In this document: piece after piece, positions 2,308 to 26,582 of the stretch
Layout: each line of letters starts with the position of its first letter
How positions within the stretch are numbered: the stretch's first letter is position 1
NCBI RefSeq assembly: GCF_025965415.1
Contig: NZ_JAOPWY010000167.1
Location: 1 to 64,000, forward strand
Direction of reading: 5' to 3'
Length of the DNA: 64,000 nt
DNA from: Nocardioides sp.
Lineage (GTDB): Bacteria; Actinomycetota; Actinomycetes; Propionibacteriales; Nocardioidaceae
The notes under the pieces: generated by a model
Told to the model about the DNA's origin: nothing
Database searches by the model: none
Seen by the model: only the letters and a program-made list of their open reading frames with translations
Position numbers and translations under genes: made by a program

Positions 2308-2360
2308 GTTACACCCACGTCACAACTGCGCGAAATGCTTGCATGTGACGGCATTCATCT

Positions 2361-2376
2361 GCATACACTGACAACC
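2361..2376 (+). promoter_or_regulatory. Putative island operator site 2, GCATACACTGACAACC
   Basis: GCATAC-core element about 35 bp upstream of the first Mo-hydroxylase operon. Confidence 0.5.
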
Positions 2377-2397
2377 CGACGACCTGAGGAGGCCCTT

Positions 2398-3270
2398 GTG
2401 GTGCGTGTTCTACGTCCGACAACCTTGGACGAGGCGCTCGCAGTGCTGCGCCACTCCGACGAGGACACGAAGGTTGTGGCCGGAGGCACCGCGCTGATGC
2501 TCATGATGCGCACCGGGTTGCTCTTTCCTGACACCCTCGTCTCGCTCGAAGACATCGCCGGCCTGGACTACATCAACATCGACGAGCGCGAGGTGCGACT
2601 GGGTGGTCTGACCACCCTGCGCACGATGGAACGCTCGAAGGACCTGTCGGCGGTCCTGCCGACCCTCACCCAGGCGCTCCCGCTCGTGGCCAACCATCGG
2701 GTCCGCAACCGCGCGACGATCGGCGGCAACCTGTGCGAGGCCGACTACGCCTCGGACCCGCCGTCGATCCTCGTCACGCTGGACTGCCAGGTGCGATTGC
2801 GCAGCACCCGCGGTGACCGCCTCGTCCCGCTGCGCGAGTTCCTGGTCGACTACTACGAGACCACCATCGAGCACGACGAGCTCGCCGTCGAAGTGATCAT
2901 CCCGCGACCGGACGCAGGCACGCGCACCCACTACGTCAAGTACGTGAGCCGGACCTCCGAGGACCGTCCCTGCGTCGGTGTCGCAGCCTCGCTGCAGGTC
3001 ATCGACGGCACATGTCGCGCCGTGAACGTCCAGGTCGCCGGAGCCACCTCCACGCCCTTCAGCGTCCCCCGAGCCCTGGCCGACTGCGTCGGACAGGCAC
3101 CCACCGATGACCTGTGGGCACATGTCGCGCACGCCTTCGAGACCGAGATCGAGCCCATCGACGACGTGCGCGGTTCCTCTGCCTACCGGCGCCAGGTCAC
3201 CGGCCGGCTCGTGAAGCGAACCCTGCGTGGCCTGACCCAGAACCACCCGAACGGAGCGACCCGGCTGTGA
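2398..3270 (+). CDS. Molybdenum hydroxylase 1, FAD-binding (CoxM/XdhB-like) subunit
   Basis: KVVAGGTALMLMMR...VRNRATIGGNLCEADYASDPPS...YVKYVSRTSEDRPCVGVA; GAGGAGG RBS; GTG start at 2398 or 2401. Confidence 0.9.
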   Translation: MVRVLRPTTLDEALAVLRHSDEDTKVVAGGTALMLMMRTGLLFPDTLVSLEDIAGLDYINIDEREVRLGGLTTLRTMERSKDLSAVLPTLTQALPLVANHRVRNRATIGGNLCEADYASDPPSILVTLDCQVRLRSTRGDRLVPLREFLVDYYETTIEHDELAVEVIIPRPDAGTRTHYVKYVSRTSEDRPCVGVAASLQVIDGTCRAVNVQVAGATSTPFSVPRALADCVGQAPTDDLWAHVAHAFETEIEPIDDVRGSSAYRRQVTGRLVKRTLRGLTQNHPNGATRL

Positions 3271-5597
3271 AGACACCCGCTGAGATCAACCACGACGGTG
3301 CCGTTGCGGTCGAAGCCGGCTCGGCCATCGGCAAGTCCGTCGACATGTACGCCGCCCGGTCCCGGGTCGACGGGAGCATCGACTTCGCCCTGAATGCCGA
3401 GATCCCCGGCATGCTGCACGCCGCGCTGGTGCGCAGCACCGTCCCGCACGCCGAGATCGTCTCCGTCGACGTCTCGGCGGCCCTGGAGATGGACGGCGTG
3501 GTCACCGTGATGACCGCCGCCGACTTCGAGAAGCCAGGCGCCCCGGCGCGCCACTACGGCCCCGTCATCAACGACCAGCCCGTGCTGTGCGGCCGCAAGG
3601 TCCGCTTCGTCGGCGACCCCATCGCCATCGTCGGCGCGGAGTCGGCTGAGATCGCCCGAGCCGCCGCCGAGCTCGTCGACGTGGAGTACAAGGAGCTCCC
3701 GGCCATCACCTCGGTCGACGAGGCGCTCGCCGCCGACGCCGATCTGGTCCACGACCAGCCGCCGCGGGCCCGCCGGCGCAGCTACTCCGACATCCGTCTG
3801 CTGGGTCGCGAGGGCAACGTCTGCACCAAGTTCCAGGTTCGCAAGGGCGACGTGGACGCAGCCTTCGCCGAGGCCGACCACATCATCGAGGACGTCTACT
3901 ACAGCCCCGCCGTGTCTCACGTGACGATGGAGCCGCACGTCGTCCTGGCCTCCTTCAACCCTCAGGGCCTGCACGTGATGAGCAGCACCCAGGCGCCGTT
4001 CGCGGTCCGCGACACCCTGTCCGAGATGTTCGACCTCCCGTCCTCGAAGGTGCGAGTCACCGTGCCGCCGATCGGTGGCGGGTACGGCGGCAAGACGTAT
4101 GCGAAGGTCGAGCCGGTGACCGCCGCGCTGGCCTGGCACAGTGGCCGGCCGGTGAAGCTCGTGCTGTCGCGGGAAGAGGAGTTCCTCACCACGACCAAGC
4201 ACGCCGCACAGATCCACATGCGGTCCGCGGTCAAGTCCGACGGCACCATCACTGGACGCGACGTGACGATCTACTTCAATGGTGGCGCCTACGCCGACAT
4301 CAGCCCGCGCCTCATCAAGAACGGCAGCTACAGCTGCGTCGGCCCCTACCGCATCCCGAACGTGCGCATCGACTCCTACGCCCTGTACACCAACCAGGTC
4401 CCTGCCGGTGCGTACCGTGGCTACGGCGTCTCCCAGGCCGCGTGGGGGTACGAGAGCCAGATGGACCAGATCGCCGACGCCCTCGGCATGGACCCCGTCG
4501 AGCTTCGCCACCGCAACCTGCTCAAGCCCGGCGACGAGTTCGCGACCGGCGAGATCATGAGCGAGGCCGTCTACGACGAGCTGCTCGACATGGCCGCCGA
4601 AGCCGTCGACTGGCCCGACGACGCCCGCGTCGACCTGGGCGAGGACATCGTGCGCGCCAAGGGCGTCGCGGTGATCTTGAAGTCCACCATCACCCCCTCG
4701 ACCAGCCACGCCGTGGTCCGTCTCGACAACGACGGGTCGGTACACGTCTTGACGTCGTCGGTGGAGATGGGTCAGGGAGCGCACACCGTCCTGGCGCAGA
4801 TCGCCGCGCAGGAGCTCGAGGTCGACATCGAGCACGTCAGCGTCAGCGCACCCGACACCGCCTACACCCCCTACGACCAGACCACCAGCTCCAGCCGCAC
4901 CACCCGGGCCATGGGTGGCGCAGTCTCGAAGGCGGCCGCCGAGGTCCGCGAGCGCCTGCTCGAACGCGCCGCGGACATGTTCGACGTGTCCGCTGACAAG
5001 TTGGTCCTCAACGAGGGCAAGGTCGAGATCCGCGATGTCCTCGACAGCGGCATCTCCATCCCGGACGTGCTCGCGGAGTCCCGCACCGGCAGCATCGTGG
5101 GTCAGGGCGAGGTCATCACCGCCGGTGGCCTGGACCCGGAGACGGGTCAGGGACTGGCCAGTGACCACTGGCACCAGGGCAGCGCATCGGTCGTGCTCGA
5201 CGTCGACCTCGCCACCGGGAAGATCTACCTCCGTTCGCTCTACGCCGCCGCGCTCGCCGGTCGGGTCATCAACCCGAAGCTGGCCAAGCTGCAGATGCAC
5301 GGCAGCATGATCTTCGGCATCGGCCACGCCCTGTACGAGGAGCTGATCTTCGAGGACGGGCAGCTGACCAACCCGAACATGTCCGACTACGCCATCACCT
5401 CGATGGGCGACCTGCCGAAGCTCGAAGTCGGGCTGCTCGAGGAGTCGGGGGCCGCCACCATTCATGGACTGGGGGAGACCACGCTGCCTCCTGTCATCGC
5501 CGCCATCGGCAATGCCGTTGCGCGAGCCACCGGAGCCCGGGTCCGTCGGCTCCCCATCACCCCCGAGCGGGTCATCGAAGCACTGGAGGCGCTGTGA
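3267..5597 (+). CDS. Molybdenum hydroxylase 1, large molybdopterin-binding subunit
   Basis: GGGYGGKTYAKVEP, PAGAYRGYGVSQAAWGYESQMDQIA, VEMGQGAHTVLAQIA, C-terminal GLGETTLPP; GTGA overlap with upstream gene. Confidence 0.93.
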   Translation: MKTPAEINHDGAVAVEAGSAIGKSVDMYAARSRVDGSIDFALNAEIPGMLHAALVRSTVPHAEIVSVDVSAALEMDGVVTVMTAADFEKPGAPARHYGPVINDQPVLCGRKVRFVGDPIAIVGAESAEIARAAAELVDVEYKELPAITSVDEALAADADLVHDQPPRARRRSYSDIRLLGREGNVCTKFQVRKGDVDAAFAEADHIIEDVYYSPAVSHVTMEPHVVLASFNPQGLHVMSSTQAPFAVRDTLSEMFDLPSSKVRVTVPPIGGGYGGKTYAKVEPVTAALAWHSGRPVKLVLSREEEFLTTTKHAAQIHMRSAVKSDGTITGRDVTIYFNGGAYADISPRLIKNGSYSCVGPYRIPNVRIDSYALYTNQVPAGAYRGYGVSQAAWGYESQMDQIADALGMDPVELRHRNLLKPGDEFATGEIMSEAVYDELLDMAAEAVDWPDDARVDLGEDIVRAKGVAVILKSTITPSTSHAVVRLDNDGSVHVLTSSVEMGQGAHTVLAQIAAQELEVDIEHVSVSAPDTAYTPYDQTTSSSRTTRAMGGAVSKAAAEVRERLLERAADMFDVSADKLVLNEGKVEIRDVLDSGISIPDVLAESRTGSIVGQGEVITAGGLDPETGQGLASDHWHQGSASVVLDVDLATGKIYLRSLYAAALAGRVINPKLAKLQMHGSMIFGIGHALYEELIFEDGQLTNPNMSDYAITSMGDLPKLEVGLLEESGAATIHGLGETTLPPVIAAIGNAVARATGARVRRLPITPERVIEALEAL

Positions 5598-6103
5598 GCG
5601 GGACCGAGGAAGTCAAGGACGTCACCTGCCGGATCAACGGCGAAGAGGTGACCCTGAGCGGAGAGGCGGCAGGCTCCACGGTCGCAGCGCTGCGGGCACG
5701 TGGCCTGTACGGCGTGCGGGAGACCTGCGGGCTCGGCGTGTGCGGGACGTGCACCGTGCTCCTCGACGGAGAGCCGGTCAGCACCTGCATCCTGCCCAAG
5801 TTCGCCCTCGAGGGCCGCGACGTCGTCACTGTCGAGGGAGCCGCCACGGCCGGTGAGCTGAGCGAGCTGCAGAAGCAGTTCATCGAGTCCCAGGCGTTCC
5901 AGTGCTCCTTCTGCACGCCTGGCTTCCTCGCCAGCGCCCAGGCGCTGCTGGACCGCACGTCCGGTGAGCTCACCCGCGGCGAGGTGGAGGAGGGCTTGCA
6001 GGGACACTTGTGCCGGTGCGGCTCCTACGACGCGATCAACGACGCGATCATCGCGGTCAGCCGACGTCGGGGGGCCAGCGACCCGGACGCGGGCGTCGCA
6101 TGA
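5594..6103 (+). CDS. Molybdenum hydroxylase 1, [2Fe-2S] subunit
   Basis: ETCGLGVCGTCTVLLDGEPVSTC and CSFCTPGF...GHLCRCGSY cysteine motifs; GTGA overlap. Confidence 0.95.
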   Translation: MSGTEEVKDVTCRINGEEVTLSGEAAGSTVAALRARGLYGVRETCGLGVCGTCTVLLDGEPVSTCILPKFALEGRDVVTVEGAATAGELSELQKQFIESQAFQCSFCTPGFLASAQALLDRTSGELTRGEVEEGLQGHLCRCGSYDAINDAIIAVSRRRGASDPDAGVA

Positions 6104-7038
6104 CCTGGGCGCACGAGCGGCCGTTCGAGCCCGTCCACGACCGACTTCCCTTCCAGCCCATCACGGCCCGGTCTTCGCCGGCGTGGCCTGGCGGGGCGAG
6201 GCTGGCGGTGTGGATCGTCCCCAACGTCGAGCACTACGAGTACCTGCCGCCCGCCGGGGCGCAGGACCCCTATCCGCGCGGACCGCACCCCGACATCCGC
6301 AAGTACAGCTACCACGACTACGGCAACCGCGCCGGCTTCTGGCGGATGCTGGAGGTGCTGGACCGGTGGGAGATCCCGTGCACCACCTCACTCAACGTGG
6401 CCGTCCTGGACCACTATCCCGAGGTCGCAGAGGCGATGGTCACGCGCGGGTGGGAGTTCATGAGTCACGGTCTGTACAACACTCGCTACCTCACCGGGCT
6501 CACCCAGGACCAGGAGCGCGACTTCCTCACCGAGGTCGACGACCTCCTCTTCTCCCGCACCGGCCGACACTTCGCCGGCATGCTCGGTCCCAACATCTCG
6601 GGCAACCCGTGGACGCCCGACCTGATGGCCGAGCAGGGCATGACCTACCACGCCGACTGGGTTCACGACGAGCGACCCGCGCCGCTGCTGACCCGGTCCG
6701 GCCGACGCCTCGTCGCGCTGCCCTACACCTACTCGCTCAACGACGCACCGCTGCTGATGCGCTCGCACCGCGAAGGCGAGGCGTACACGAAGATGTGCAC
6801 CGACCAGTTCGACGAGCTCTGCGAAGGTGAGGAGCACGTGGGCCGGATGATGTGCCTGTCGCTGCACCCGTTCGCGATCGGCCAACCGCACCGGGTCGAG
6901 GCGCTCAACGCCGTCCTGGCTCACCTGCGCTCGCGCGACGACGTGTGGATCGCGACCGGGTCCATGATCGCTGAGCACTACCTGAACACGGCGTTCGAGG
7001 ACGACCTGTCCCAGGCCACCGGTGGGGGCGCAGCATGA
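6100..7038 (+). CDS. Polysaccharide deacetylase-fold protein, PuuE/cyclic-imide-hydrolase-like
   Basis: WPGGARLAVWIVPNVEHYEY...YSYHDYGNRAGFWRMLEVLDRWEIPCTTSLN...GWEFMSHGLYNT...MCLSLHPFAIGQPHR; ATGA overlap. Confidence 0.85.
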   Translation: MTWAHERPFEPVHDRLPFQPITARSSPAWPGGARLAVWIVPNVEHYEYLPPAGAQDPYPRGPHPDIRKYSYHDYGNRAGFWRMLEVLDRWEIPCTTSLNVAVLDHYPEVAEAMVTRGWEFMSHGLYNTRYLTGLTQDQERDFLTEVDDLLFSRTGRHFAGMLGPNISGNPWTPDLMAEQGMTYHADWVHDERPAPLLTRSGRRLVALPYTYSLNDAPLLMRSHREGEAYTKMCTDQFDELCEGEEHVGRMMCLSLHPFAIGQPHRVEALNAVLAHLRSRDDVWIATGSMIAEHYLNTAFEDDLSQATGGGAA

Positions 7039-7982
7039 TCGGCGGACGTGCCACCGGGGGGTCGCGCGCCCTGAATCTCACCTCCGCGGATCGGCCAGCT
7101 CGTCCTGGCTACGACCACGGGTGGTTCCGCTATCGGCCCGTCCACACCTCCTCCGCGCCGGCGTGGCCGGGCGGACGCCCGCTCGCGGTTGCGGTCATCC
7201 TCGACGTGCGGTCAGCCGAATGGGAGCGCGTGGCACCAGCAGTTCCGGTCCCCGGAGGGCGCGGAGTCGCGCCCTATCCCGACTACCCGCGCCTGTCGCA
7301 TCGCGAGTTCGGACACCGTGTCGGCGTGTGGCGCCTGAGCCAGGTGCTCGGCGAGCTGCAGATCCCCTGGACCGGCGTGCTCGACGTGATGACCGCCGAG
7401 CACTACGCCCCGGTCCGGGAGCTGGTCGTGGACCAGGCGTCCCAGATCGCAGCTGGCGGACTCAGTGCGAGTCGTCCGATCACCTCCGCGATGGTCGAGC
7501 AGGAGGAACGCGCCTATGTGAAGGCAACCCTCGAGCGGCTTGATGCAGCGCTGGGCGCGACACCGACGACGTGGATGGGGCCTGGCTGGTCCCAGTCGGC
7601 ACTGACCCCCGGCATCCTGGCCGACGCGGGCGTGAGGGTCATGCTGGACTGGGGGAACGACGACGCGCCCTACCGCGTGGAGGCGGCCGCCCCGCTGTGG
7701 TCGGTGCCCGTGTCGTGGGAGCTGACCGACGTCGCTGCGATGCTCGAACGCGACGTGGAGCCGGCGGTGTACGCCGAGTCGGTCGAGCGGGCGATCGACG
7801 TGCTGGTCCGCGATGGCGCCCAGACCCCCCGCATGCTCTGCCTGCACCTGCATCCGTGGCTCAGCGGTGAGGCGTTCCGTACCCGAGCGCTGCGGCCGGT
7901 CCTGGCGCGCCTCGCCCAGCGAGACGACGTGTGGCTCGCGACACCCGAGCAGATGGTCGTGCACGCGGCCGGCGACATCTGA
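7035..7982 (+). CDS. Second PuuE-like polysaccharide deacetylase-fold paralogue, altered active-site segment
   Basis: WPGGRPLAVAVILDV...LSHREFGHRVGVWRLSQVLGELQIPWTGVLDV...MLCLHLHPWLSGEAFR; lacks the GWEFMSHG segment. Confidence 0.8.
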   Translation: MIGGRATGGSRALNLTSADRPARPGYDHGWFRYRPVHTSSAPAWPGGRPLAVAVILDVRSAEWERVAPAVPVPGGRGVAPYPDYPRLSHREFGHRVGVWRLSQVLGELQIPWTGVLDVMTAEHYAPVRELVVDQASQIAAGGLSASRPITSAMVEQEERAYVKATLERLDAALGATPTTWMGPGWSQSALTPGILADAGVRVMLDWGNDDAPYRVEAAAPLWSVPVSWELTDVAAMLERDVEPAVYAESVERAIDVLVRDGAQTPRMLCLHLHPWLSGEAFRTRALRPVLARLAQRDDVWLATPEQMVVHAAGDI

Positions 7983-8977
7983 TGTCCTCGCGCCCCCGCA
8001 TCGCGCTGATCAGCACCGGTGGAACCATCGACTCCCTGGGGCACGACCGCACCGATCTGGCGTTCTACACCGAAGCGCGCTCACGTTTGCCCGAGGGGGA
8101 GCTCCTCGCCGCCGTCCCCGAGATCACCGAGGTCGCCGACATCGAGCCGGTCCCGTTCGAGCGGGTCCCCAGCTACCAGCTCTCGGTCCAGTCGTGGGCA
8201 ACCCTCGTGCAGACGGTGCAGCAGCTGACGTGTGATTCCCCATGCGACGGCGTCGTCATCACCCACGGCACCAACAGCCTCGAGGAGACCGCGTTCCTGC
8301 TCAGCCTGACCGTCGACTGCCTCAAACCGGTCGTGGTCGTCGGCGCGATGCGACCGTTCAACGCACTCGCCGCGGACGGGCCGCTGAACCTGCTGCAGGC
8401 GGTGCGCCTGGCCGCCTCTCCGCACGCGCTGGGTCACGGCGTGCTGGTGGTCTCCAACGACACGATCTTCGCCGGTCGAGACGTGGCGAAGGCGACGACA
8501 TTTCGTGCCGATGCGTTCACCGGCGCGGACATGGGCCCGGTAGGACACGTCGAGGCCGACGGCAGCGTAGACCTGCGGATGCGACACGACTCGAACAGCA
8601 CACCCGTCTTCGACGTCGGCGACGTCGCGCGGATGCCTCGCGTGGACGTCGTGATCTCCTACGTGGGCGCAGACGGCGCCTTGATCGACGCAGCGGTGGC
8701 CGCCGGTGCGCGAGGGATCGTCTCCGCCGGCACCGGTGGGGGACGACCCACCGCCGCCGAGGACGAGGCACTCGAACGCGCCGTCCGGGCCGGGGTGGTG
8801 GTGTGCCAGTCCACCCGGGTCCCCACGGGGAAGGTGCTGCGCTCCCCGCAGATGAAGGCCGCCGGCAAGGTCGTCGCGGGCGCCCGGCCGGCATGGCAGG
8901 CGCGCATCGCGCTGGCTCTCGCGCTGACCAGGAGCCAGCAGCCGGACGAAGTCCAGACCTATCTGGACCGCCTCTGA
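7982..8977 (+). CDS. Asparaginase-family amidohydrolase
   Basis: IALISTGGTIDSLG; VITHGTNSLEETAFLLSLTVDCLKPVVVVGAMRP; TGATG coupling with upstream gene. Confidence 0.92.
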   Translation: MSSRPRIALISTGGTIDSLGHDRTDLAFYTEARSRLPEGELLAAVPEITEVADIEPVPFERVPSYQLSVQSWATLVQTVQQLTCDSPCDGVVITHGTNSLEETAFLLSLTVDCLKPVVVVGAMRPFNALAADGPLNLLQAVRLAASPHALGHGVLVVSNDTIFAGRDVAKATTFRADAFTGADMGPVGHVEADGSVDLRMRHDSNSTPVFDVGDVARMPRVDVVISYVGADGALIDAAVAAGARGIVSAGTGGGRPTAAEDEALERAVRAGVVVCQSTRVPTGKVLRSPQMKAAGKVVAGARPAWQARIALALALTRSQQPDEVQTYLDRL

Positions 8978-9028: not shown

Positions 9029-9733
9029 ATGCAGATCGACAACGAGTTCCAGGTGCAGGCGCCCCCCGGTGAGGTGTGGGACTACCTCCAGCGCACGGAG
9101 GACGTCGTGGAGTGCATCCCCGGCGCCGCGATCCTGGAGAAGCTCAGCGAGGACGAGTACCGCGGACAGGTGACCGTCAAGCTCGGCCCGCTCGCGGTCG
9201 TCCTGCAGGGCACGGTCACCATCGATGAGCGCGACCACGACGCGCGCACGATGAAACTCACCGGACGGGCCAAGGACACCAAGGGCCGCGGCGCGACCGA
9301 TGCCGGCGTCGTCGTCGACATCGTCGCCCAGGGTGAGGGCACCCAGGTGACGCTGGTGTCCGACGTCAAGGTCACCGGCAAGATCGCCCAGTTCGGGCGC
9401 GGAGTGATGAAGGACGTCAGCCAGCGCATCGCCGATGAGTTCGCCCGTAACCTCGAGGCGCGCCTGACCGGCCCCGTGGCGCCCGAGGCACAGCCGGACC
9501 CCGTTGCCGAGGAGCTGCCCGGCAGGGCGGCCACCCCGTCGCGCCCGGTCCAGGCGGCCCCGTCGGCCGCGGGCCCCCGGCACGCTGCCGCCGTCCCGGG
9601 GCAGGCTGCGCCCTCGGTGGGCGGCATCCGACTGGTCGCTGGCGCGCTCATGCGCGCTCTCGGATCGGCGATCGGCAACATCTTCCGCAAGCTGGCCAAG
9701 CCCTTCACCGGCGACAAGAGCGGACGCCGCTGA
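9029..9733 (+). CDS. CoxG-like SRPBCC protein with C-terminal amphipathic/basic helix
   Basis: MQIDNEFQVQAPPGEVWDYLQRTEDVVECIPGAAILEKL...LKLTGRAKDTKGRGATDAGVVVDI...KITGKIAQFGRGVMKDVSQRIADEFARNLEARL; RBS GGAGGTG. Confidence 0.9.
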   Translation: MQIDNEFQVQAPPGEVWDYLQRTEDVVECIPGAAILEKLSEDEYRGQVTVKLGPLAVVLQGTVTIDERDHDARTMKLTGRAKDTKGRGATDAGVVVDIVAQGEGTQVTLVSDVKVTGKIAQFGRGVMKDVSQRIADEFARNLEARLTGPVAPEAQPDPVAEELPGRAATPSRPVQAAPSAAGPRHAAAVPGQAAPSVGGIRLVAGALMRALGSAIGNIFRKLAKPFTGDKSGRR

Positions 9734-11412
9734 TGGTCAACCGCATCCTGACGCGGTTGGACCCTGTCCAGTCAGAGGGTTACTACCGCGAGGGGCGCTG
9801 GCGCGCCGACTCGCTGTGGGACGTGTTCCAGGTCGGCGCGTACGCGCACCCGGAGCGCCCCGCGATCGTCGAGCGCGCACGTACCCACACCTACCGCGAC
9901 CTGCTCGATGCGGCCGGCCGGCTGGCCGGTTGGCTGCACGAGCAGGGCCTGCGCGACGGTGACCGGGTGGCGGTGTGGCTGCCGAGCCGGGCCGAGGTCG
10001 CGGTCGCGGTCCTGGCGTGCGCCCGGTTGGGCCTGGTCTGCTGCCCCTCCCTCCACCGCGACCACACCGTCGGACAGGTCGTGGAGCTTGCCGAGCGCAT
10101 GCGAGCGGCGGCGTTCATCGGCCAGCCCGGTTACGGCGCTGACGCCGAACGTCACGACATCTTCGCCGAGCTGGGCACGCTGGCCACGTCGCCGGCCACG
10201 CTGCACGTGGCGCCGCTCACCGACCCGAGCAGCCAGCCGGACCAGCCGGGGGAGCCGGGGATGTTCGCCGACCTCGCCGCGAGCCCTGCGCCGCCGGCGC
10301 ACCGCACGCACGCGGACGCTGTGGTCTACCTGGCCTTCACGTCGGGCTCGACCGGTGAACCCAAGGGTGTCATGCACTCCAGCAACACGTTGCTGTCCCC
10401 AGTGCGCGCCATGGCCCGTGACTGGGCGCTCGGCGGTGACACGGTGATCTACTCGCTCTCACCGTTGAGCCACAACCTCGGCTTCGGTGCGATGCTGACG
10501 GCCTTGACGAACGGCGGAACCCTCGTCGCGCACGACCTTCCGCGTGGCGCCAGCGTCGCCGAGCGCATGGCCGAGACCGCCACCGCGTTCGCGTTCGGTG
10601 TGCCCACCCACGTCATCGACCTGCTCGGGGAGATCGAGAGGGGTCACGGGCAGGGACTGCGCCTGCGAGGGTTCCGCATCTCGGGCGCGGCCGTGTCCGA
10701 GGACGTGGTCCTGAGACTGCGCGCACGTGGAATCACACCGCAGACCGGCTACGGCATGACAGAGGCCGGCTCCCACCACTACACGCGAGCCGAGGATGCC
10801 CCCGAGCTGATCGCCGAGACCTCGGGACGCCCCTTCGAGGGCCACGAGGTCAAGATCGTCGACCGGGAGGACTCCACGCGCGAGCTGCCCGCCGGCGAGG
10901 TCGGACAGATCCTGGGCCGCGGTCCGAGCATCACCCTGGGCTACTTCGACGACCAGCGCGCCACCGAGGCCAGCATCACCGACGACGGGTGGCTGCTGAC
11001 CGGTGACCTGGGGTGGCAGGACGAGAACGGCTACATCCGCATCACCGGTCGCAAGAAGGACGTCATCATCCGCGGCGGTCACAACATCTTCCCCGCACGC
11101 ATCGAAGGACTGGCCGGCGGCTGCCCCGGCGTGGCGGCCGTCGCGGCCGTGTCCGTCCCCGACCCGCGTCTGGGGGAGAGGGTCTGCCTGGTCGTCACGT
11201 CCAAGGAACAGCCGCCCGCGGCCGACGACGTTCTCCAGCACCTGGACCGGGCAGGGCTGTCGAAGTACGACATGCCAGAGTTCTATGCCGTCATGGGCGC
11301 ACTACCCCTGCTTCCCTCCGGCAAGGTCGACAAGCGCAAGATCGAGGCGCTCATCGCCGACAAGGCCGTCGCCATCGAACCCGTCCGATTCACCGAGGGA
11401 GCCAAGGGATGA
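9733..11412 (+). CDS. AMP-dependent acyl-CoA synthetase
   Basis: AFTSGSTGEPKGVMHSSNT, GYGMTEAGSHHYTR, WLLTGDLGWQDENGYIRITGRKKDVIIRGGHNIFP, LLPSGKVDKRKI. Confidence 0.93.
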   Translation: MVNRILTRLDPVQSEGYYREGRWRADSLWDVFQVGAYAHPERPAIVERARTHTYRDLLDAAGRLAGWLHEQGLRDGDRVAVWLPSRAEVAVAVLACARLGLVCCPSLHRDHTVGQVVELAERMRAAAFIGQPGYGADAERHDIFAELGTLATSPATLHVAPLTDPSSQPDQPGEPGMFADLAASPAPPAHRTHADAVVYLAFTSGSTGEPKGVMHSSNTLLSPVRAMARDWALGGDTVIYSLSPLSHNLGFGAMLTALTNGGTLVAHDLPRGASVAERMAETATAFAFGVPTHVIDLLGEIERGHGQGLRLRGFRISGAAVSEDVVLRLRARGITPQTGYGMTEAGSHHYTRAEDAPELIAETSGRPFEGHEVKIVDREDSTRELPAGEVGQILGRGPSITLGYFDDQRATEASITDDGWLLTGDLGWQDENGYIRITGRKKDVIIRGGHNIFPARIEGLAGGCPGVAAVAAVSVPDPRLGERVCLVVTSKEQPPAADDVLQHLDRAGLSKYDMPEFYAVMGALPLLPSGKVDKRKIEALIADKAVAIEPVRFTEGAKG

Positions 11413-12428
11413 GCGAGCGGATGCAGGCAGTTCTCATCTCCCAGTTCGCCGACCTCGACGCCGTCGAGGTCGCCGAGGTCGACCGTCCCGAACCGGGCCC
11501 CGAGGAGGTGCTCGTCGGCGTCGCGGCGGTGCCGGTGAACTACGTCGACCTGGTCACGATGCGGGGCGACTACCAGTTCAAGCCGACCCTGCCCTACATC
11601 CCGGGCAAGGGCCCGGCCGGAACGGTCCTGGCCATTGGTTCTGAGGTCACCGACGTCAAGGTCGGGGATCGTGTGCTCGCCATGGCCGAGTACGGCGGGT
11701 ACGCCCAGGCGTGCGTGGTCCGGGCTGACCAGGTCTACGTCCTCCCCGAGCAGCTGAGCTTCGAAGACGCGGCGGCGATGTCGCTGGCCTTCGACACCGC
11801 CTGGATGGCCCTGGTGGATCGTGCCCGCATCGAACGCGGCGACCGTGTCCTGATCCTGGGCGCGAGCGGCGCGGTCGGCTCCGCCGCTGTGCAGCTCTCG
11901 CGTGCGCTGGGCGCTCGCCAGGTCATCGCGGGCGTGTCGCGCCCGGACAGGTTCGACGAGCTGAAGTCCTTGGGCGCGGACGACGTCGTCGACTTGTCGG
12001 AGGCACCCCTGCGCGAGACCGTGCGCTCCCGTGTCCTGGACCTCACGGACGGGCACGGCGCAGACGTGGTCATCGACATGCTCGGTGGTGACCCCTTCGA
12101 CGGTGCGGTGCGCGCCGTGGCGTGGCGGGGTCGGCTGGTGATCGTCGGGTTCGCCGCGGGACGAATCCCCACGCTGAAGATGAACTACGTGATGTTGAAG
12201 AACATCGAGGTCTCCGGCGTGCAGATCAGCGACTACCGCAAGCGCACCCCGGATCTGATGCGCCGCTGCTATGCGCAGATCTTCGAGTTCACCGTCGCAG
12301 GTGCCATCGCCCCGCCGACGTACGATGCCCGCCCGCTGAGCGAGTGGCGCAGCGCCGTCGAGGACCTCTCCAACCGCGCCACGACCGCCCGGTTGCTGCT
12401 GCAGCCGCCGCCGCGGCTAGACGGCTGA
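11409..12428 (+). CDS. NADPH:quinone oxidoreductase-like MDR-superfamily protein
   Basis: LPYIPGKGPAGTVLAIGSEVTDVKVGDRVLAM...RVLILGASGAVGSAAVQLSRALGA...GADVVIDMLGGDPFDGAVRAVAWRGRLVIVGFAAGRIP. Confidence 0.9.
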   Translation: MSERMQAVLISQFADLDAVEVAEVDRPEPGPEEVLVGVAAVPVNYVDLVTMRGDYQFKPTLPYIPGKGPAGTVLAIGSEVTDVKVGDRVLAMAEYGGYAQACVVRADQVYVLPEQLSFEDAAAMSLAFDTAWMALVDRARIERGDRVLILGASGAVGSAAVQLSRALGARQVIAGVSRPDRFDELKSLGADDVVDLSEAPLRETVRSRVLDLTDGHGADVVIDMLGGDPFDGAVRAVAWRGRLVIVGFAAGRIPTLKMNYVMLKNIEVSGVQISDYRKRTPDLMRRCYAQIFEFTVAGAIAPPTYDARPLSEWRSAVEDLSNRATTARLLLQPPPRLDG

Positions 12429-17284: not shown

Positions 17285-19585
17285 GTGCTCGACGCGCGAG
17301 ACCGGGTGACGGGCCGTACGCCGTACGTCATCAACCACGACCTGCCCGGCATGCTGCACTGCCAGGTCGTGCGCTCGACGCTGCCACATGCGCGGATCCT
17401 GGGGGTCGACACCTCGAGGGCATCCGCCGCGCCTGGCGTCCGAGCCGTGGTGACCGGCCAGGACCTGCTCGCGATGGACGACGTGGGGTCGCGGTTCGGT
17501 CCCGTGCTCACCGACCAGTCGGTCCTCGCCCACGACGTCGTGCGCTACGTCGGCGAACCGGTCGTGGCCGTCGTGGCCGAGACGGCCCGCGCTGCCGCCC
17601 TGGCCGCGGAGCTGGTCGAGGTGACCTACGAGGCGATGCCCGCGGTCTTCGACGCCATCGAGGCGTGCAGCGGTCAGGCGCCCAGGCTGTTCACCGAGGT
17701 GCCTGAGCGCGACCCGATGTTCGTGGACATCACCTTGCGCTCGGATCATGAACGCAACATCTGCAACACCTTCACCGTCGAGCGAGGAGACGTCGAGGCC
17801 GGTTTCGAACAGGCCGACCACGTCTTCGACGAGTGGTACGACAGCCCCGCCGTGGGGGCCGTCCCCTTGGAGACGCATGCCGTGGTGGCCGATTGGCGCC
17901 CCGACGGCGTCACCGTGTGGACCAACACCCAGACCCCGCACATCGTCCGCCGCCAGCTGGCCTTGCTGCTGCGCACCACCTTGAGCAGGGTCCGTGTCAT
18001 CGTGCCCGCAGTCGGCGGGGGGTTCGGCGCCAAGGCCTACGCCGCCATCGAGCCCGTCGCCGTGCTCATGTCGAAGATCTGCCGCGCACCGGTGCGCATG
18101 CACCTTCGCCGCGACGAAGAGTTCGTCACGATGACCAAGCACGCCATGAAGGTCCGCCTGCGCACCGGCGTCACCGATCAGGGCGACATCGTCGCTCGTG
18201 AGGCCACCGCGTACTACAACGCGGGCGCCTACGCCACGATCAGCCCCCGCAAGGTGATGTTCGCCGGCTACGGCCTCAACGGCCCGTACCGGATCCCGAA
18301 CGTGCGCATCAACGCTCACGCGGTCTTGACGAACACCCCGCCGGCGGGCGCGTACCGAGGCTTCGCCATCAATCAGGCCGCCTGGGCGTATGAGAACCAG
18401 ATGGACACCATCGCCGAGCATCTCGGCATCGACGCCGTCGAGCTGCGTCGCCGCAACCTGCTCGTCGACGGAGACACCTTCTGCACCGGCGAACAGCTCG
18501 ATCACCTCAACTTCGTCGACATGCTCGACACCGTCGCCGAGAAGATCGGGTGGGGCCAAGGTCCCGCCGTGGAACGTGACGGCGACGTCGTGCGCGCCTG
18601 GGGCGTCAGCGCGGTCATCGAGGGGACCATCACCCCCTCGACGTCCGCTGCGGCGGTGCGCGTCAACGACGACGGCAGCGTCGTGGTGTTGACCAGCTCG
18701 GTGGAGATGGGTCAAGGGATCCGGTCCGCGCTGGCCTACAACGTCGCCGAGCACCTCGGTGTGTCCACGGACGACGTGCAGGTCTCCTACGTCGACACCG
18801 ACCTGACCCCCTACGACCAGCAGACCACCGCCAGCCGATCCGCGTTCTCCATGGGCGAAGCCCTGGGTCGTGCCTCCGAGGACCTCATCGACAAGATCCG
18901 CCACCTCGCCGCAGGCCTGCTCGAGGCACCTGTCGAGGAGATCGAGTTCGACCAGGGCGCGGTTCAGGTCCGGGGAGTGCCCGACACCCGCATGAACATG
19001 GGCGACGTGATCCGACGCACGATGAGCGGGGACGTGCTGGGGGAGGGCACCTTCACCACCTCCGGCGGACTGGACCCGTTCACGGGTCAAGGCATCGGTT
19101 CTGCGCACTGGCACCAGTCCATCGGCGCCGCGCAAGTCGCGGTGGACCTCGCCACCGGACGTGTCACCCTCGAGCGCTACCACGGAGCCGTGTTCGCCGG
19201 AAAGGTCATCGACCCGCTCGGCGCCCAGCATCAGTGCGAAGGTTGCCTGCTGTTCGGCGTCGGAAACGCGTTGTTCGAGGAGCTGGTCTACGCCGACGGG
19301 CAGCTGGTCAACGGAAGCCTCGCTGACTACATGGTCCCCACCTTGGAGGACCTACCACCTGAGCGCACCTTCGACCTGGTTGAGGACCCTGAGCGTGCGG
19401 AGCCGCACGGCCTCGGCGAACCGGCGCTGCCGCCCATCGCCCCCGCGATGAGCAACGCCGTCTACCGGGCCACCGGAGTGCGCGTGACCTCCCTGCCTCT
19501 CACCTCCGAACGTGTCTACCGGGCATTGCAGGACGTGAAGGCACCGGCTCCATCAACGACCGGAGCAGAAGGCGGTGTGGCATGA
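17285..19585 (+). CDS. Molybdenum hydroxylase 2, large molybdopterin-binding subunit
   Basis: GGGFGAKAYAAIEP; PAGAYRGFAINQAAWAYENQMDTIA; VEMGQGIRSALAYNVAEHL; GLGEPALPPIAPAMSNAVYRATGVRVTSLPLT; RBS GGAGGT. Confidence 0.93.
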   Translation: MLDARDRVTGRTPYVINHDLPGMLHCQVVRSTLPHARILGVDTSRASAAPGVRAVVTGQDLLAMDDVGSRFGPVLTDQSVLAHDVVRYVGEPVVAVVAETARAAALAAELVEVTYEAMPAVFDAIEACSGQAPRLFTEVPERDPMFVDITLRSDHERNICNTFTVERGDVEAGFEQADHVFDEWYDSPAVGAVPLETHAVVADWRPDGVTVWTNTQTPHIVRRQLALLLRTTLSRVRVIVPAVGGGFGAKAYAAIEPVAVLMSKICRAPVRMHLRRDEEFVTMTKHAMKVRLRTGVTDQGDIVAREATAYYNAGAYATISPRKVMFAGYGLNGPYRIPNVRINAHAVLTNTPPAGAYRGFAINQAAWAYENQMDTIAEHLGIDAVELRRRNLLVDGDTFCTGEQLDHLNFVDMLDTVAEKIGWGQGPAVERDGDVVRAWGVSAVIEGTITPSTSAAAVRVNDDGSVVVLTSSVEMGQGIRSALAYNVAEHLGVSTDDVQVSYVDTDLTPYDQQTTASRSAFSMGEALGRASEDLIDKIRHLAAGLLEAPVEEIEFDQGAVQVRGVPDTRMNMGDVIRRTMSGDVLGEGTFTTSGGLDPFTGQGIGSAHWHQSIGAAQVAVDLATGRVTLERYHGAVFAGKVIDPLGAQHQCEGCLLFGVGNALFEELVYADGQLVNGSLADYMVPTLEDLPPERTFDLVEDPERAEPHGLGEPALPPIAPAMSNAVYRATGVRVTSLPLTSERVYRALQDVKAPAPSTTGAEGGVA

Positions 19586-20241
19586 GCAACGACGAGGACA
19601 CCCTGGTCCTTCTGCCCGACGAGGACGGCGACGTCCAGCTCACCTTGAACGTGAACGGGCACCAGCGCAAGGTCACAGCCCGCCCCACGCAGCCCCTGCT
19701 GGAAGTCCTGCGGGACGAGCTGCGTCTGCACGGCGCTCGAAGCGGCTGCGGTGTGGGAATCTGCGGTGCCTGCACCGTGCTGCGCGATGGCGCGGCCGTC
19801 AACAGCTGCCTGACCCTGGCCGGCCTGTGCGCCGACGCCGAGATCACCACCATCGAGGGCCTCGACGGCGGCGAAGACGACCTCTCGCCGGTCCAGGATG
19901 CGTTCTTGCGTCACCGTGCGTTCCAGTGCTCGTACTGCACCTCGGGGTTCATCCTCGCCCTCGAGGCACTCCTGCTCAGGAACCCTCGCCCCACTGAGAA
20001 GGACGTTCGCGACGCCTTCAGCGGTCAGGTGTGCCGGTGCGGCAGCTACACGCAGATCATGGCCGCGGCGCTGGAGTTCGTGGCCGGGGAGTCAGTCACC
20101 GAGGAGTCCGCCGCCCTGGAGTCGACCGCGGAGTCCGCGGCTGAGGAAGCGGCGGCACGTGAGTCCTCCGGTGCTTCTGTCGCCGGATCCATCGCCGATG
20201 AGCTCGTCCCGGGGGACGCGAAGGCAGGCGGAGACCAGTGA
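19582..20241 (+). CDS. Molybdenum hydroxylase 2, [2Fe-2S] subunit with acidic low-complexity C-terminal tail
   Basis: SGCGVGICGACTVLRDGAAVNSC; CSYCTSGF...GQVCRCGSYTQIM; tail AGESVTEESAALESTAESAAEEAAARESSGAS. Confidence 0.95.
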   Translation: MSNDEDTLVLLPDEDGDVQLTLNVNGHQRKVTARPTQPLLEVLRDELRLHGARSGCGVGICGACTVLRDGAAVNSCLTLAGLCADAEITTIEGLDGGEDDLSPVQDAFLRHRAFQCSYCTSGFILALEALLLRNPRPTEKDVRDAFSGQVCRCGSYTQIMAAALEFVAGESVTEESAALESTAESAAEEAAARESSGASVAGSIADELVPGDAKAGGDQ

Positions 20242-21128
20242 CCTCACCGCCCATCTTCTTCCCCCGAACGCTGAGCGATGCCTGCGAGATCCTCGCGGAC
20301 TACGACGGGCAGGCCAAGGTCGTTGCGGGGGCGACCGCCCTGTCGCTGCTCATGGGTCAGAAGCTTGTTGACCCCGAGGCGCTCGTGTCGTTGAGCAGGA
20401 TCGCCGACCTCGACCAGATCACCGTCACTGAGGGGGTGGTGACCCTCGGCGCGCTCGTCAAGCACGCCGATGTCGACCGGTCCGAGGTCGTGCGGGAGCA
20501 CGCGCGCGTCCTGGCGCAGTCCTTCGCCGTCGTCGGCAACCCGCGCATCCGCGCAGCCGCGACCGTGGGTGGCGTCCTCGCCGAGGCCGACTACGCCTCC
20601 GATCCGCCGGCACCCGTGGTGCTCCTCGACGGATGGGTCACGGTGGTCGGTCCGGGTGGAACCCGTGAGATCGCCGCCTCGGACTTGTTCGTCGGCTTCT
20701 ACGAGACCAGCCTCGAAGCCGACGAGGTCATCTCCCACCTTCACGTTCCCGTGACGGACCCGGCCGCCTACACCTCGTACCTGAAGTACTCCTCCAGGTC
20801 GGCAGAGGACCGCCCGTGTGTCGGCGTGGCCGTGTTGGTCCACGTCGGCGTCGATGGTTCCTGCGCGGACGTGCGAGTCAGCGTCGGCGCAGCCGCGGAA
20901 GTCCCGCTGCGGTTGCGCGAGGTCGAGAAGGAGGCCGTCGGTCACGTGCTCGACGACGCCCGCATCGCCCACATCGCCCAGGCGTACGCCGATGCCCTGG
21001 ACCCCATCGAGGACGTACGCGGAAGCGGTTGGTACCGCACCGAGATGACTCGAAACCTGATCTCGCGCGCCCTCGCGAACGCACGCGACACTGCGCCCCG
21101 AGCAACTGAAGCAGGAGAGAAAGAATGA
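20238..21128 (+). CDS. Molybdenum hydroxylase 2, FAD-binding subunit
   Basis: KVVAGATALSLLMG...IRAAATVGGVLAEADYASDPPAP...YLKYSSRSAEDRPCVGVA. Confidence 0.9.
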   Translation: MTSPPIFFPRTLSDACEILADYDGQAKVVAGATALSLLMGQKLVDPEALVSLSRIADLDQITVTEGVVTLGALVKHADVDRSEVVREHARVLAQSFAVVGNPRIRAAATVGGVLAEADYASDPPAPVVLLDGWVTVVGPGGTREIAASDLFVGFYETSLEADEVISHLHVPVTDPAAYTSYLKYSSRSAEDRPCVGVAVLVHVGVDGSCADVRVSVGAAAEVPLRLREVEKEAVGHVLDDARIAHIAQAYADALDPIEDVRGSGWYRTEMTRNLISRALANARDTAPRATEAGEKE

Positions 21129-23698: not shown

Positions 23699-25165
23699 AT
23701 GTCGAAGCGAGTCATTGTCGTAGGCGGGGGCAACGCAGCCCTGTGTGCGGCTCTTTCTGCCCGTGAGAACGGAGCAGACGTTGTGGTGCTCGAGCGCGCC
23801 GACGGCGACCTGAAGGGCGGCAACACCGCCTTCACCGCGGGCGCGATGCGCGTGGCGTACGAGGGAGTCGACGACCTGCTCACCTTGATGCCCGAGCTGA
23901 CCGAGGACGAGCTGGCCACCACCGACTTCGGCAGCTACCCCGCGTCGGACTTCTTCGACGACATCGCACGCGTCACCGAGTACCGGACCGACCCTGAGCT
24001 CGCCAGCGTCCTGGCCGACGAGAGCCTGCCGACGCTGCAGTGGATGAACAAGCAGGGCGTGCGGTTCGTGCCCATCTATGGTCGCCAGGCCTTCAAGATC
24101 GACGGCCGCTTCAAGTTCTGGGGCGGTCTGACCGTCGAGGTGTCCGGCGGAGGCCCCGGCCTGGTCGACGCACTCACCAAGGCCGCCGCCAATGCCGGCG
24201 TGCAGGTCGAGTACGGCGCACGCGTGCTCTCGCTCGTCGCAGGTGACCAGGGCGTGACCGGGGTCACGGTGCGGCAGAACGGCGTCACCCGGGAGGAGCA
24301 CGCAGACGCGGTGATCCTCGCCAGCGGCGGCTTCCAGGCGAACACCGCCTGGCGGACCCAGTACCTGGGCCCGAACTGGGACCTGGCCAAGGTGCGCGGC
24401 ACCCAGTTCAACACCGGCGACGGTCACGACATGGCACTGCGTATCGGCGCCAGCCCCGCGGGCAACTGGTCCGGCTGCCATGCCGTCAGCTGGGAGCTCA
24501 ACGCGCCGGAGTTCGGCGACATGGCCGTCGGTGACCACTTCCAGAAGCACAGCTACCCGTGGTCGGTGATGATCAACGCCGAGGGCAAGCGATTCGTCGA
24601 TGAGGGCGCAGACTTCCGCAACTACACCTACGCCAAGTACGGACGCCGGGTGCTTGAGCAGCCCGGCCAGTTCGCCTGGCAGGTCTTCGACAGCAAGGTC
24701 AGCCACCTGCTGCGCGACGAGTACCGCATCAAGCAGGTCACCAAGGTCACCGCGAACACCCTCGAGGAGCTCGCCAAGAAGATGGACGGCGTGGACCCCG
24801 AAGGCTTCCTCGCCGAGATCCGCGCATACAACGCAGCCATCGACCAGGACGTCGCCTTCGACCCGAACGTCAAGGACGGACGTGGGACCACGGGTCTGGC
24901 GGTCAACAAGACCAACTGGGCCAACACCATCGAGGACGGGCCGTTCGAGGCCTACGCGGTCACCTGCGGCATCACCTTCACGTTCGGGGGCCTGCGCATC
25001 AATCCCGACGCCCAGGTGCTGGACACGGACCAGCGTGTCATCCCCAACCTGTACGCAGCAGGCGAGATCGTCGGCGGCGTCTTCTACTTCAACTACCCGG
25101 GTGGATCGGGACTGACGAACGGTTCCGTCTTCGGGAAGATCGCCGGAGCGAACGCGGCTCGCTAG
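23699..25165 (+). CDS. FAD-dependent oxidoreductase of the fumarate reductase/tricarballylate dehydrogenase type
   Basis: VIVVGGGNAALCAALSARENGADVVVLERADGDLKGGNTAFTAG; GLRINPDAQVLDTDQRVIPNLYAAGEIVGGVFYFNYPGGSGLTNGSVFGKIAG. Confidence 0.9.
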   Translation: MSKRVIVVGGGNAALCAALSARENGADVVVLERADGDLKGGNTAFTAGAMRVAYEGVDDLLTLMPELTEDELATTDFGSYPASDFFDDIARVTEYRTDPELASVLADESLPTLQWMNKQGVRFVPIYGRQAFKIDGRFKFWGGLTVEVSGGGPGLVDALTKAAANAGVQVEYGARVLSLVAGDQGVTGVTVRQNGVTREEHADAVILASGGFQANTAWRTQYLGPNWDLAKVRGTQFNTGDGHDMALRIGASPAGNWSGCHAVSWELNAPEFGDMAVGDHFQKHSYPWSVMINAEGKRFVDEGADFRNYTYAKYGRRVLEQPGQFAWQVFDSKVSHLLRDEYRIKQVTKVTANTLEELAKKMDGVDPEGFLAEIRAYNAAIDQDVAFDPNVKDGRGTTGLAVNKTNWANTIEDGPFEAYAVTCGITFTFGGLRINPDAQVLDTDQRVIPNLYAAGEIVGGVFYFNYPGGSGLTNGSVFGKIAGANAAR

Positions 25166-25937: not shown

Positions 25938-26582
25938 TTGATTCCCACTGAAGCCCTGACTGGCTCGTCCATCGTGTTCGACGAGGTGCTCCCTGCGAAG
26001 CAGGGCACCGCGTTCGAGATGGCCGCGGGCCAAGTGCTGCGCATCGTCGATATCGAGGGCCAGCAAGTGCCGGACCTGCTGTGCCTCAACAGTGCGGACT
26101 ACACCGACAAGTTCTCTCCGCCGAACACGCAGCTGCTCAACCAGACGATCTTCCTCAAGACCGGGCACCACCTGTACTCAACACGGGCCGAGAAGATGAT
26201 GACCATCATCGAGGACACGGTCGGAGTCCACGACGTGATCAGCGGCGGCTGCAGCGCCGCCACCAACGAGTTCCGTTACGGCGTTCGTGGTACGGCCAGT
26301 TGCCGCGGAAACTTCGAGAAGGCGCTCGCTCCCTACGGCGTTCCCGAGGCCGAGATCCCCTACAACTTCAACATCTTCATGAACGTCACGGTGTCGCCAG
26401 AGGGTGCGACCGCGATCGAGGAGTGCCCGAGCAAGCCCGGCGACTACATCGATCTCCTGGCGGACATGGACGTGCTGGTGGCGATCTCGAACTGCCCGCA
26501 GTCGCGCAATCCCTGCAACGGCTGGAACCCGACGGCGCTCCGCCTGATCCTTCACGAGCCGGGGGCACGGGTCGGCGCCTGA
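25938..26582 (+). CDS. DUF1989 (urea carboxylase-associated / carboxyguanidine deiminase-like) protein
   Basis: LRIVDIEGQQVPDLLCLNSADYTDKFSPPNTQLLNQTIFLKTGHHLYSTRAEKMMTI; NCPQSRNPCNGWNPTALRLIL; TTG start inferred. Confidence 0.88.
   Translation: MIPTEALTGSSIVFDEVLPAKQGTAFEMAAGQVLRIVDIEGQQVPDLLCLNSADYTDKFSPPNTQLLNQTIFLKTGHHLYSTRAEKMMTIIEDTVGVHDVISGGCSAATNEFRYGVRGTASCRGNFEKALAPYGVPEAEIPYNFNIFMNVTVSPEGATAIEECPSKPGDYIDLLADMDVLVAISNCPQSRNPCNGWNPTALRLILHEPGARVGA

Follow-up and report, generated by a model that had tools for sequence, protein, structure and literature searches.

Genes A and B, which lie in tandem in the window (the whole stretch of 64,000 nucleotides of Nocardioides sp. DNA that was analysed), are paralogues with a PuuE/NodB fold that we read, at a probability of about 0.68, as the two subunits of a hetero-oligomeric ring hydrolase of PuuE type (NodB fold, not the metal type of CE4 enzymes), A being catalytic and B non-catalytic here. 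This reading draws on tandem order with translational coupling, two fusions and matching trees, and on an intact A in every pair beside repeated, non-identical losses of the B site under purifying selection; complex formation, the inactivity of B, the reaction and its substrate are what we infer. Of the two options raised by the first-pass annotation, an active/pseudoenzyme hetero-oligomer thus has strong indirect support from gene order, fusions, trees and motif states, and a second enzyme of different mechanism is disfavoured. More broadly, we give even odds that the pair represents a widespread and ancient class of two-subunit PuuE-type ring hydrolases, distinct from homotetrameric PuuE, in which the catalytic subunit is obligately paired with, and sometimes fused to, a non-catalytic paralogue. 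The only family match for such proteins is a generic one, of polysaccharide-deacetylase type. Should A and B form one enzyme, soil and marine bacteria, among them SAR202-type Chloroflexi and Acidimicrobiia, would contain an unrecognised two-part class of cyclic-amide hydrolases, and expressing either half alone would give misleading negatives.

Genes A and B and their active-site motifs

That A and B are tandem paralogues had been suggested from the DNA letters alone, and this held on comparison, the two proteins being 32% identical, of the PuuE/NodB fold and both with structure matches of PuuE type. The proposed ATGA overlap was likewise found, the shared bases being 7035-7038 (Table 1). Overlaps extend to both neighbours: the 5' end of A overlaps the upstream 2Fe-2S subunit gene, again by ATGA, and the 3' end of B overlaps the asparaginase-like gene by one base (TGATG). 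In sequence searches of the PDB, A matched 1z7a (1.9e-27) and 3cl6 (1.6e-25), and B matched 3rxz best (4.6e-18) and 3cl6 at 1.8e-11; A also matched Pfam PF01522 (2.6e-08). The TIGR03212 profile scored A at 130.4 bits (6.9e-38) and B at 65.2 bits (4.9e-18), but neither reached the curated cut-off of this equivalog for PuuE allantoinase (424.6 bits), so the earlier label "imidase/PuuE" is sound for fold and family and fails for allantoinase PuuE itself, from whose threshold both scores (130 and 65 bits) are far removed. A genome search with B returned A and B as the only two matches in the source genome. A close relative of B was sought in the source genome and its congeners and none was found; a single-protein scan of genome contigs with B gave no match, but an A-like alignment did succeed. 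The closest relatives of B are only ~50% identical to it.

Table 1. Features of the A/B region and its gene cluster, in window coordinates
Feature	Position	Strand	Description
Molybdenum hydroxylase 1	2335-6103	+	FAD 2335-3270, Mo 3324-5597, 2Fe-2S 5594-6103; Pfam
Gene A	6100-7038	+	312 aa, ATG 6100-6102; PuuE/NodB-fold hydrolase, proposed catalytic subunit
A motif 1, N42-V43-E44	6223-6231	+	N42 and E44 in 65/65 first genes
A motif 2 histidine, H123 (SHGLYN)	6466-6468	+	65/65 first genes
A motif 5 histidine, H256 (LHP)	6865-6867	+	65/65 first genes
A stop/B start overlap	7035-7038	+	4 bases, ATGA, from sequence; translational coupling
Gene B	7035-7982	+	315 aa, ATG 7035; degenerate PuuE/NodB-fold paralogue, proposed non-catalytic partner subunit
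G-x-D-H near N-terminus of B, residues 25-28	7107-7118		66-72 of 76 second genes/halves; absent from first genes
B motif 1, D57-V58-R59 (E to R)	7203-7211	+	R/G/G/R/T in the five members of B's clade
B motif 2, G141 for histidine (AGGLSAS)	7455-7457	+	GLSAS in 5/5 of B's clade
B motif 5, H273 retained (HLHPW)	7851-7853	+	From alignment
Asparaginase-like amidase	7982-8977	+	Proposed half-amidase; PF00710 1.3e-51
AMP-forming acyl ligase and quinone-oxidoreductase-type ADH	9733-12428	+	Order conserved in L086, L089
Molybdenum hydroxylase 2 (Mo, 2Fe-2S, FAD)	17285-21128	+	ORFs; homologous to hydroxylase 1 by sequence
TcuA-like FAD-dependent tricarballylate dehydrogenase	23699-25165	+	NF006130 577.7 bits, cut-off 369
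DUF1989 protein	25938-26582		Resembles urea-amidolyase-associated proteins

In CE4/NodB enzymes, motif 1 supplies an Asp-x-Asp, motif 2 two histidines and motif 5 one histidine as the metal-binding and catalytic residues, represented in HpPgdA by Asp12, Asp14, His86, His90 and His247 (PMC3084791), and PuuE is reported to be non-metal-dependent (PMC10967932). The HpPgdA residues were mapped to A and B by motif position and their equivalence is an assignment of that kind, whereas the alignments of A with B and with 1z7a and 3rxz were computed. A keeps every expected active-site position (N42, E44, H123, N127 and H256), an arrangement of the same kind as in 1z7a (N, E, H, W, H). At the same positions B has D57, R59, G141 and A145, with H273 alone retained. 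The CE4 Asp-His-His metal triad is absent from both A (E44/H123/N127) and B (R59/G141/A145), while 3rxz, aligned together with them, retains residues of the metal type. The segments that the first-pass annotation had quoted, GWEFMSHGLYNT for A and ASQIAAGGLSAS for B, are as given, A and B do share the flanking WPGG, FGxRxGxWR and LHP regions, and the conserved E/H segment is indeed missing from B, in which H123 is replaced by G141, N127 by A145 and E119 (of the "WEF" in A) by Q137. A larger change, which had gone unremarked, lies in motif 1, where N42-V-E44 of A corresponds to D57-V-R59 of B. Having lost the acid and the motif-2 histidine, and with a fold that appears retained on sequence and model grounds, B is a candidate CE4/NodB pseudoenzyme.

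We considered E62 of B as a replacement catalytic residue and rejected it, as it aligns with E47 of A and is not new; a new catalytic residue at motif 1 or 2 of B was rejected on the grounds that the replacements there vary within B's clade. An alignment error was rejected as the source of the motif loss, since the predicted strands (35-43, 119-122 and 249-255 in A; 50-57, 137-140 and 266-272 in B) put the motifs at the aligned positions and the same segments occur in related B proteins. The strands come from AlphaFold2 models of A and B as single chains (pLDDT 81.7 and 78.5, respectively), for which Foldseek against solved structures found 1z7a and 3cl6, of the NodB-type distorted barrel, to be nearest; the A model matched these with TM 0.75-0.79 and the B model, with 3cl6 first, with TM 0.70-0.73.

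Paired loci, fusions and trees

The first sign of other tandem pairs came from a class-level genome search, in two actinobacteria (genomes G152, locus L033, and G461, locus L052). An alignment of three first genes, used to scan 84,980 species genomes, then yielded 80 loci, which are the best matches to A-like genes and in which A's clade is over-represented. A same-strand tandem pair with the A-like gene first was present in 63 of these 80 loci, and a further 11 had A and B fused in one reading frame. As for the rest, L134 has overlapping reading frames of the A-B kind, the B gene of L117 is cut off by the contig end, L100 lies at a contig end, and L139 and L142 have a B-like gene on the opposite strand, 0.7-1 kb away. 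The sole A-like locus with neither an adjoining partner nor a contig cut was L106 (Dehalococcoidia 277c_30, G533), from a genome with 21 family matches, several pairs among them. Seemingly unpaired A-like loci were considered as a contradiction of pairing, which we rejected because 11 of the 12 were fusions; the genomes of these 12 loci all contain further strong B-like matches. In three loci of Comamonadaceae and Polaromonas (L153, L155 and L158) another A-like gene comes after the tandem pair, and a B-like gene lies 4-5 kb off on the other strand; these two may make up a second, split pair.

The two genes are closely spaced, B starting at most 12 nt from the A stop in 46 of 65 pairs and with an exact 4-base ATGA-type overlap in 18 of them. 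In two evenly drawn samples, of 397 genomes from the phylum and 274 from the class of genome G538, pairs were sparse (about one per cent) and each strong B-like match adjoined an A-like gene. The window pair belongs to this group: an A-like gene is followed by a B-like gene on the same strand, A falling in the first-gene clade and B in the second-gene clade. That the A/B motif pattern recurs in dozens of independent pairs argues against its being due to chance.

In a maximum-likelihood tree of first and second genes, built by a quick method as were our other trees and with 3RXZ as outgroup, the first genes formed one clade (SH-aLRT 99) and the second genes another (SH-aLRT 97), and the subclades of the two match across Actinomycetota, Chloroflexota, Pseudomonadota and Rokubacteria. 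The first- and second-gene distance matrices were correlated at r = 0.91, a value reached in none of 1000 permutations. Second genes diverged more in 99% of comparisons, and their total tree length was 23.7 versus 14.0 for first genes. Since each set is one clade and the subtrees match, the simplest history would be one ancient duplication followed by inheritance as a unit, including by lateral transfer.

The 11 fusions are single ORFs of 637-718 residues with the A half N-terminal every time, and the starred branches of the tree force two separate origins for them, in Acidimicrobiia and Burkholderiales. When the same two proteins have been fused independently, this is classically taken as evidence of functional, usually physical, association. 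E/H/H is intact in all 11 fused N-halves and in none of the 11 C-halves, which always lack the motif-5 histidine (R there) and in L111 and L115 also lack the motif-2 histidine.

Active-site asymmetry and the proposed role of B

Across the 65 pairs, with motif states taken from a single alignment to which sequences were added, N42, E44, H123, N127, N214 and H256 are invariant in the first genes. Second genes keep E in 48, H123 in 50 and H256 in 44 of 65, N214 in a single case and N127 in none, so the full E/H/H triad is found in 65/65 first genes versus 32/65 second genes. It is also intact in 36 of 36 unpaired homologues and in 7 more from later samples (43 in all), the nearer of which have no partner gene within flanks of ~1.5 kb. 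The losses take many forms: R/G/H in B of the window and L088, G/G/H in L086, G/A/H in L087 and T/G/H in L089, and elsewhere P/R/F in L052 and L147, Q/H/T in L033, G/A/T in four Roseomonas-type loci and E/H/R in many Acidimicrobiia. On a second-gene tree built for counting losses with the motif columns masked, the minimum number of changes was 8 for E, 4 for the motif-2 histidine and 7 for the motif-5 histidine. Many independent site losses beside an invariant partner amount to a natural experiment on the change from enzyme to pseudoenzyme. Pairwise dN/dS among degenerate second genes of Roseomonas type (L131, L146, L154 and L157) was 0.20-0.26, a range at which these genes are, by their sequences, not decaying. 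B's clade of five keeps GLSAS, SHREFGHR and HLHPW at ~50% overall identity, and second genes generally carry a signature of G25-x-D27-H28 (70, 72 and 66 of 76, respectively), W180 (76/76), N208 (73/76) and W275 (74/76).

This signature, the purifying selection on the second-gene clade and its retention of E/H/H in 32 of 65 members would suit B as an enzyme in its own right, with another active site, which acts on what A produces or on a tautomer of the substrate of A, so that the tandem is a pathway; tandem order, fusion and co-inheritance would also be expected if A and B catalyse consecutive steps. We nevertheless consider this unlikely, as the replacements of E and H vary inside B's clade (R/G/G/R/T and G/G/A/G/G), which implies that no new catalytic residue has been fixed, the losses are repeated and differ between lineages, and there is no obvious second step, an amidase already following B. 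Loss of the catalytic site with the fold retained (in the model) is also what would be seen if B were a free-standing regulator or substrate-binding protein that had given up PuuE-type catalysis and made no stable complex with A, but the two independent in-frame A-B fusions and the matching trees favour a fixed stoichiometric partnership, and we rate such a role as quite improbable. Hardest to credit is that B is a decaying duplicate en route to loss in the source genome: although its end branch (0.93-1.43) is among the longest of the second genes, its intact reading frame overlaps the genes on either side, its ancestry in a separate clade long predates the source genome, at least five actinobacterial lineages have retained it, and all five have GLSAS, EFGHR and HLHPW.

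With A as catalytic subunit and B as its partner, A would bind and hydrolyse a ring amide through its N-x-E, SHG and LHP residues, and B would be an obligate member of a mixed oligomer patterned on the PuuE homotetramer. PuuE is a homotetramer, and each of its monomers is described as carrying an active site independent of the others (PMC6983136), so that a partner would not be needed in principle. Since the acid and the motif-2 histidine are lost in the window lineage, B most likely has no catalytic part there and instead stabilises, shapes or regulates A as its partner, giving it structure, specificity or regulation and not PuuE-type catalysis. In other lineages, where half of the second genes keep E/H/H, B is for that reason perhaps catalytic, and both subunits may be active where the triad is kept. 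In a two-subunit class the paralogue, having lost catalysis many times independently, might for example complete, gate or organise the active site of A.

A resembles PuuE allantoinase (PDB 3CL6; TIGR03212) in having an SHG motif 2 without the second metal histidine, and the likeness extends to the fold, the motif order, the N-x-E motif 1 and the LH motif 5; a small cyclic amide would be expected as substrate here too. PuuE allantoinase, however, is a single-gene homo-oligomer, whereas the putative window enzyme is a pair (a fusion in relatives) in which B lacks E and H and both proteins fall far short of the equivalog cut-off. The fold of A and B is shared by unpaired polysaccharide deacetylase-like proteins of actinobacteria, those of the 3RXZ type among them, but 3RXZ keeps the metal-type D-x-D and H...H motifs, unlike A and B, and the nearer unpaired relatives keep E/H/H, unlike B. 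The CE4 pseudoenzymes BA3943 (PDB 7BKF, 6HPA) and 4M1B, the latter termed a pseudoenzyme (PMC10967932), have, as in B, a NodB fold with catalytic function lost, but they are distant from B (TM ~0.5), and no active paralogous partner is reported for them in the records examined. A search of the open-access literature found no description of a heteromeric or paired PuuE-like enzyme. Pairs of active and inactive paralogues are known from trypanosomatid AdoMetDC-prozyme and deoxyhypusine synthase and from the alpha and beta subunits of mitochondrial processing peptidase. Pairs of the AdoMetDC-prozyme type have a degenerate paralogue as obligate partner, as proposed for B, and offer a lead, although their folds and reactions are unrelated.

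Gene neighbourhood and a candidate pathway

In the window the order is molybdenum hydroxylase, A, B, asparaginase-like amidase, AMP ligase and ADH, and further members of the cluster are the second molybdenum hydroxylase, the TcuA-like dehydrogenase and a GntR regulator. This arrangement is conserved in Pseudonocardia acidicola and an actinomycete MAG, and partly in a Dactylosporangium MAG. In L086 and L089 A is directly preceded by orthologues of molybdenum hydroxylase 1, and in L086-L089 B is directly followed by the asparaginase-like gene. Molybdenum hydroxylase 2 has orthologues in related clusters, and CoxG- and XdhC-like genes (Pfam matches) lie downstream of it. The TcuA-like protein has a 75% orthologue on the L089 contig, ~7 kb from A, and in P. 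acidicola a 45% homologue ~10 kb upstream of A. Other phyla have the pair close to amidases of the isochorismatase or GatA type and to luciferase-type monooxygenases, and the theme common to pair neighbourhoods is, as far as gene content indicates, ring amide opening followed by amidase action.

The window cluster defines a candidate pathway for N-heterocycle degradation. Two molybdenum hydroxylations would yield a dihydroxylated azine, another tautomer of which is a cyclic imide; the pair would most likely open the cyclic imide or lactam, e.g., a dihydroxylated pyridine in its imide tautomer, and the asparaginase-like enzyme would then free ammonia from the resulting half-amide. For the substrate, a doubly hydroxylated N-heteroaromatic in general is a balanced bet. 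The TcuA homologue suggests tricarballylate or cis-aconitate as end product, and on this basis we tentatively name pyridine-4-carboxylate (isonicotinate via citrazinate), a more specific and rather doubtful proposal. The pathway outlined here draws on established enzyme families and on older biochemistry, in which two-step imide catabolism proceeds by an imidase and a half-amidase, and isonicotinate catabolism by way of citrazinate. The order expected from these routes, ring amide opening and then an amidase of isochorismatase or asparaginase type, is as in the window; for imidase with half-amidase and for isonicotinate genes, no matching paper was found in the open-access literature searched for each theme.

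Two smaller observations concern individual members of the cluster. Instead of the THGTD of type II L-asparaginases, the asparaginase-like protein has THGTN, with the N kept in all five orthologues (window and L086-L089), a hint that its amide substrate has changed. The DUF1989 protein (Table 1) has a homologue in the Dactylosporangium MAG cluster.
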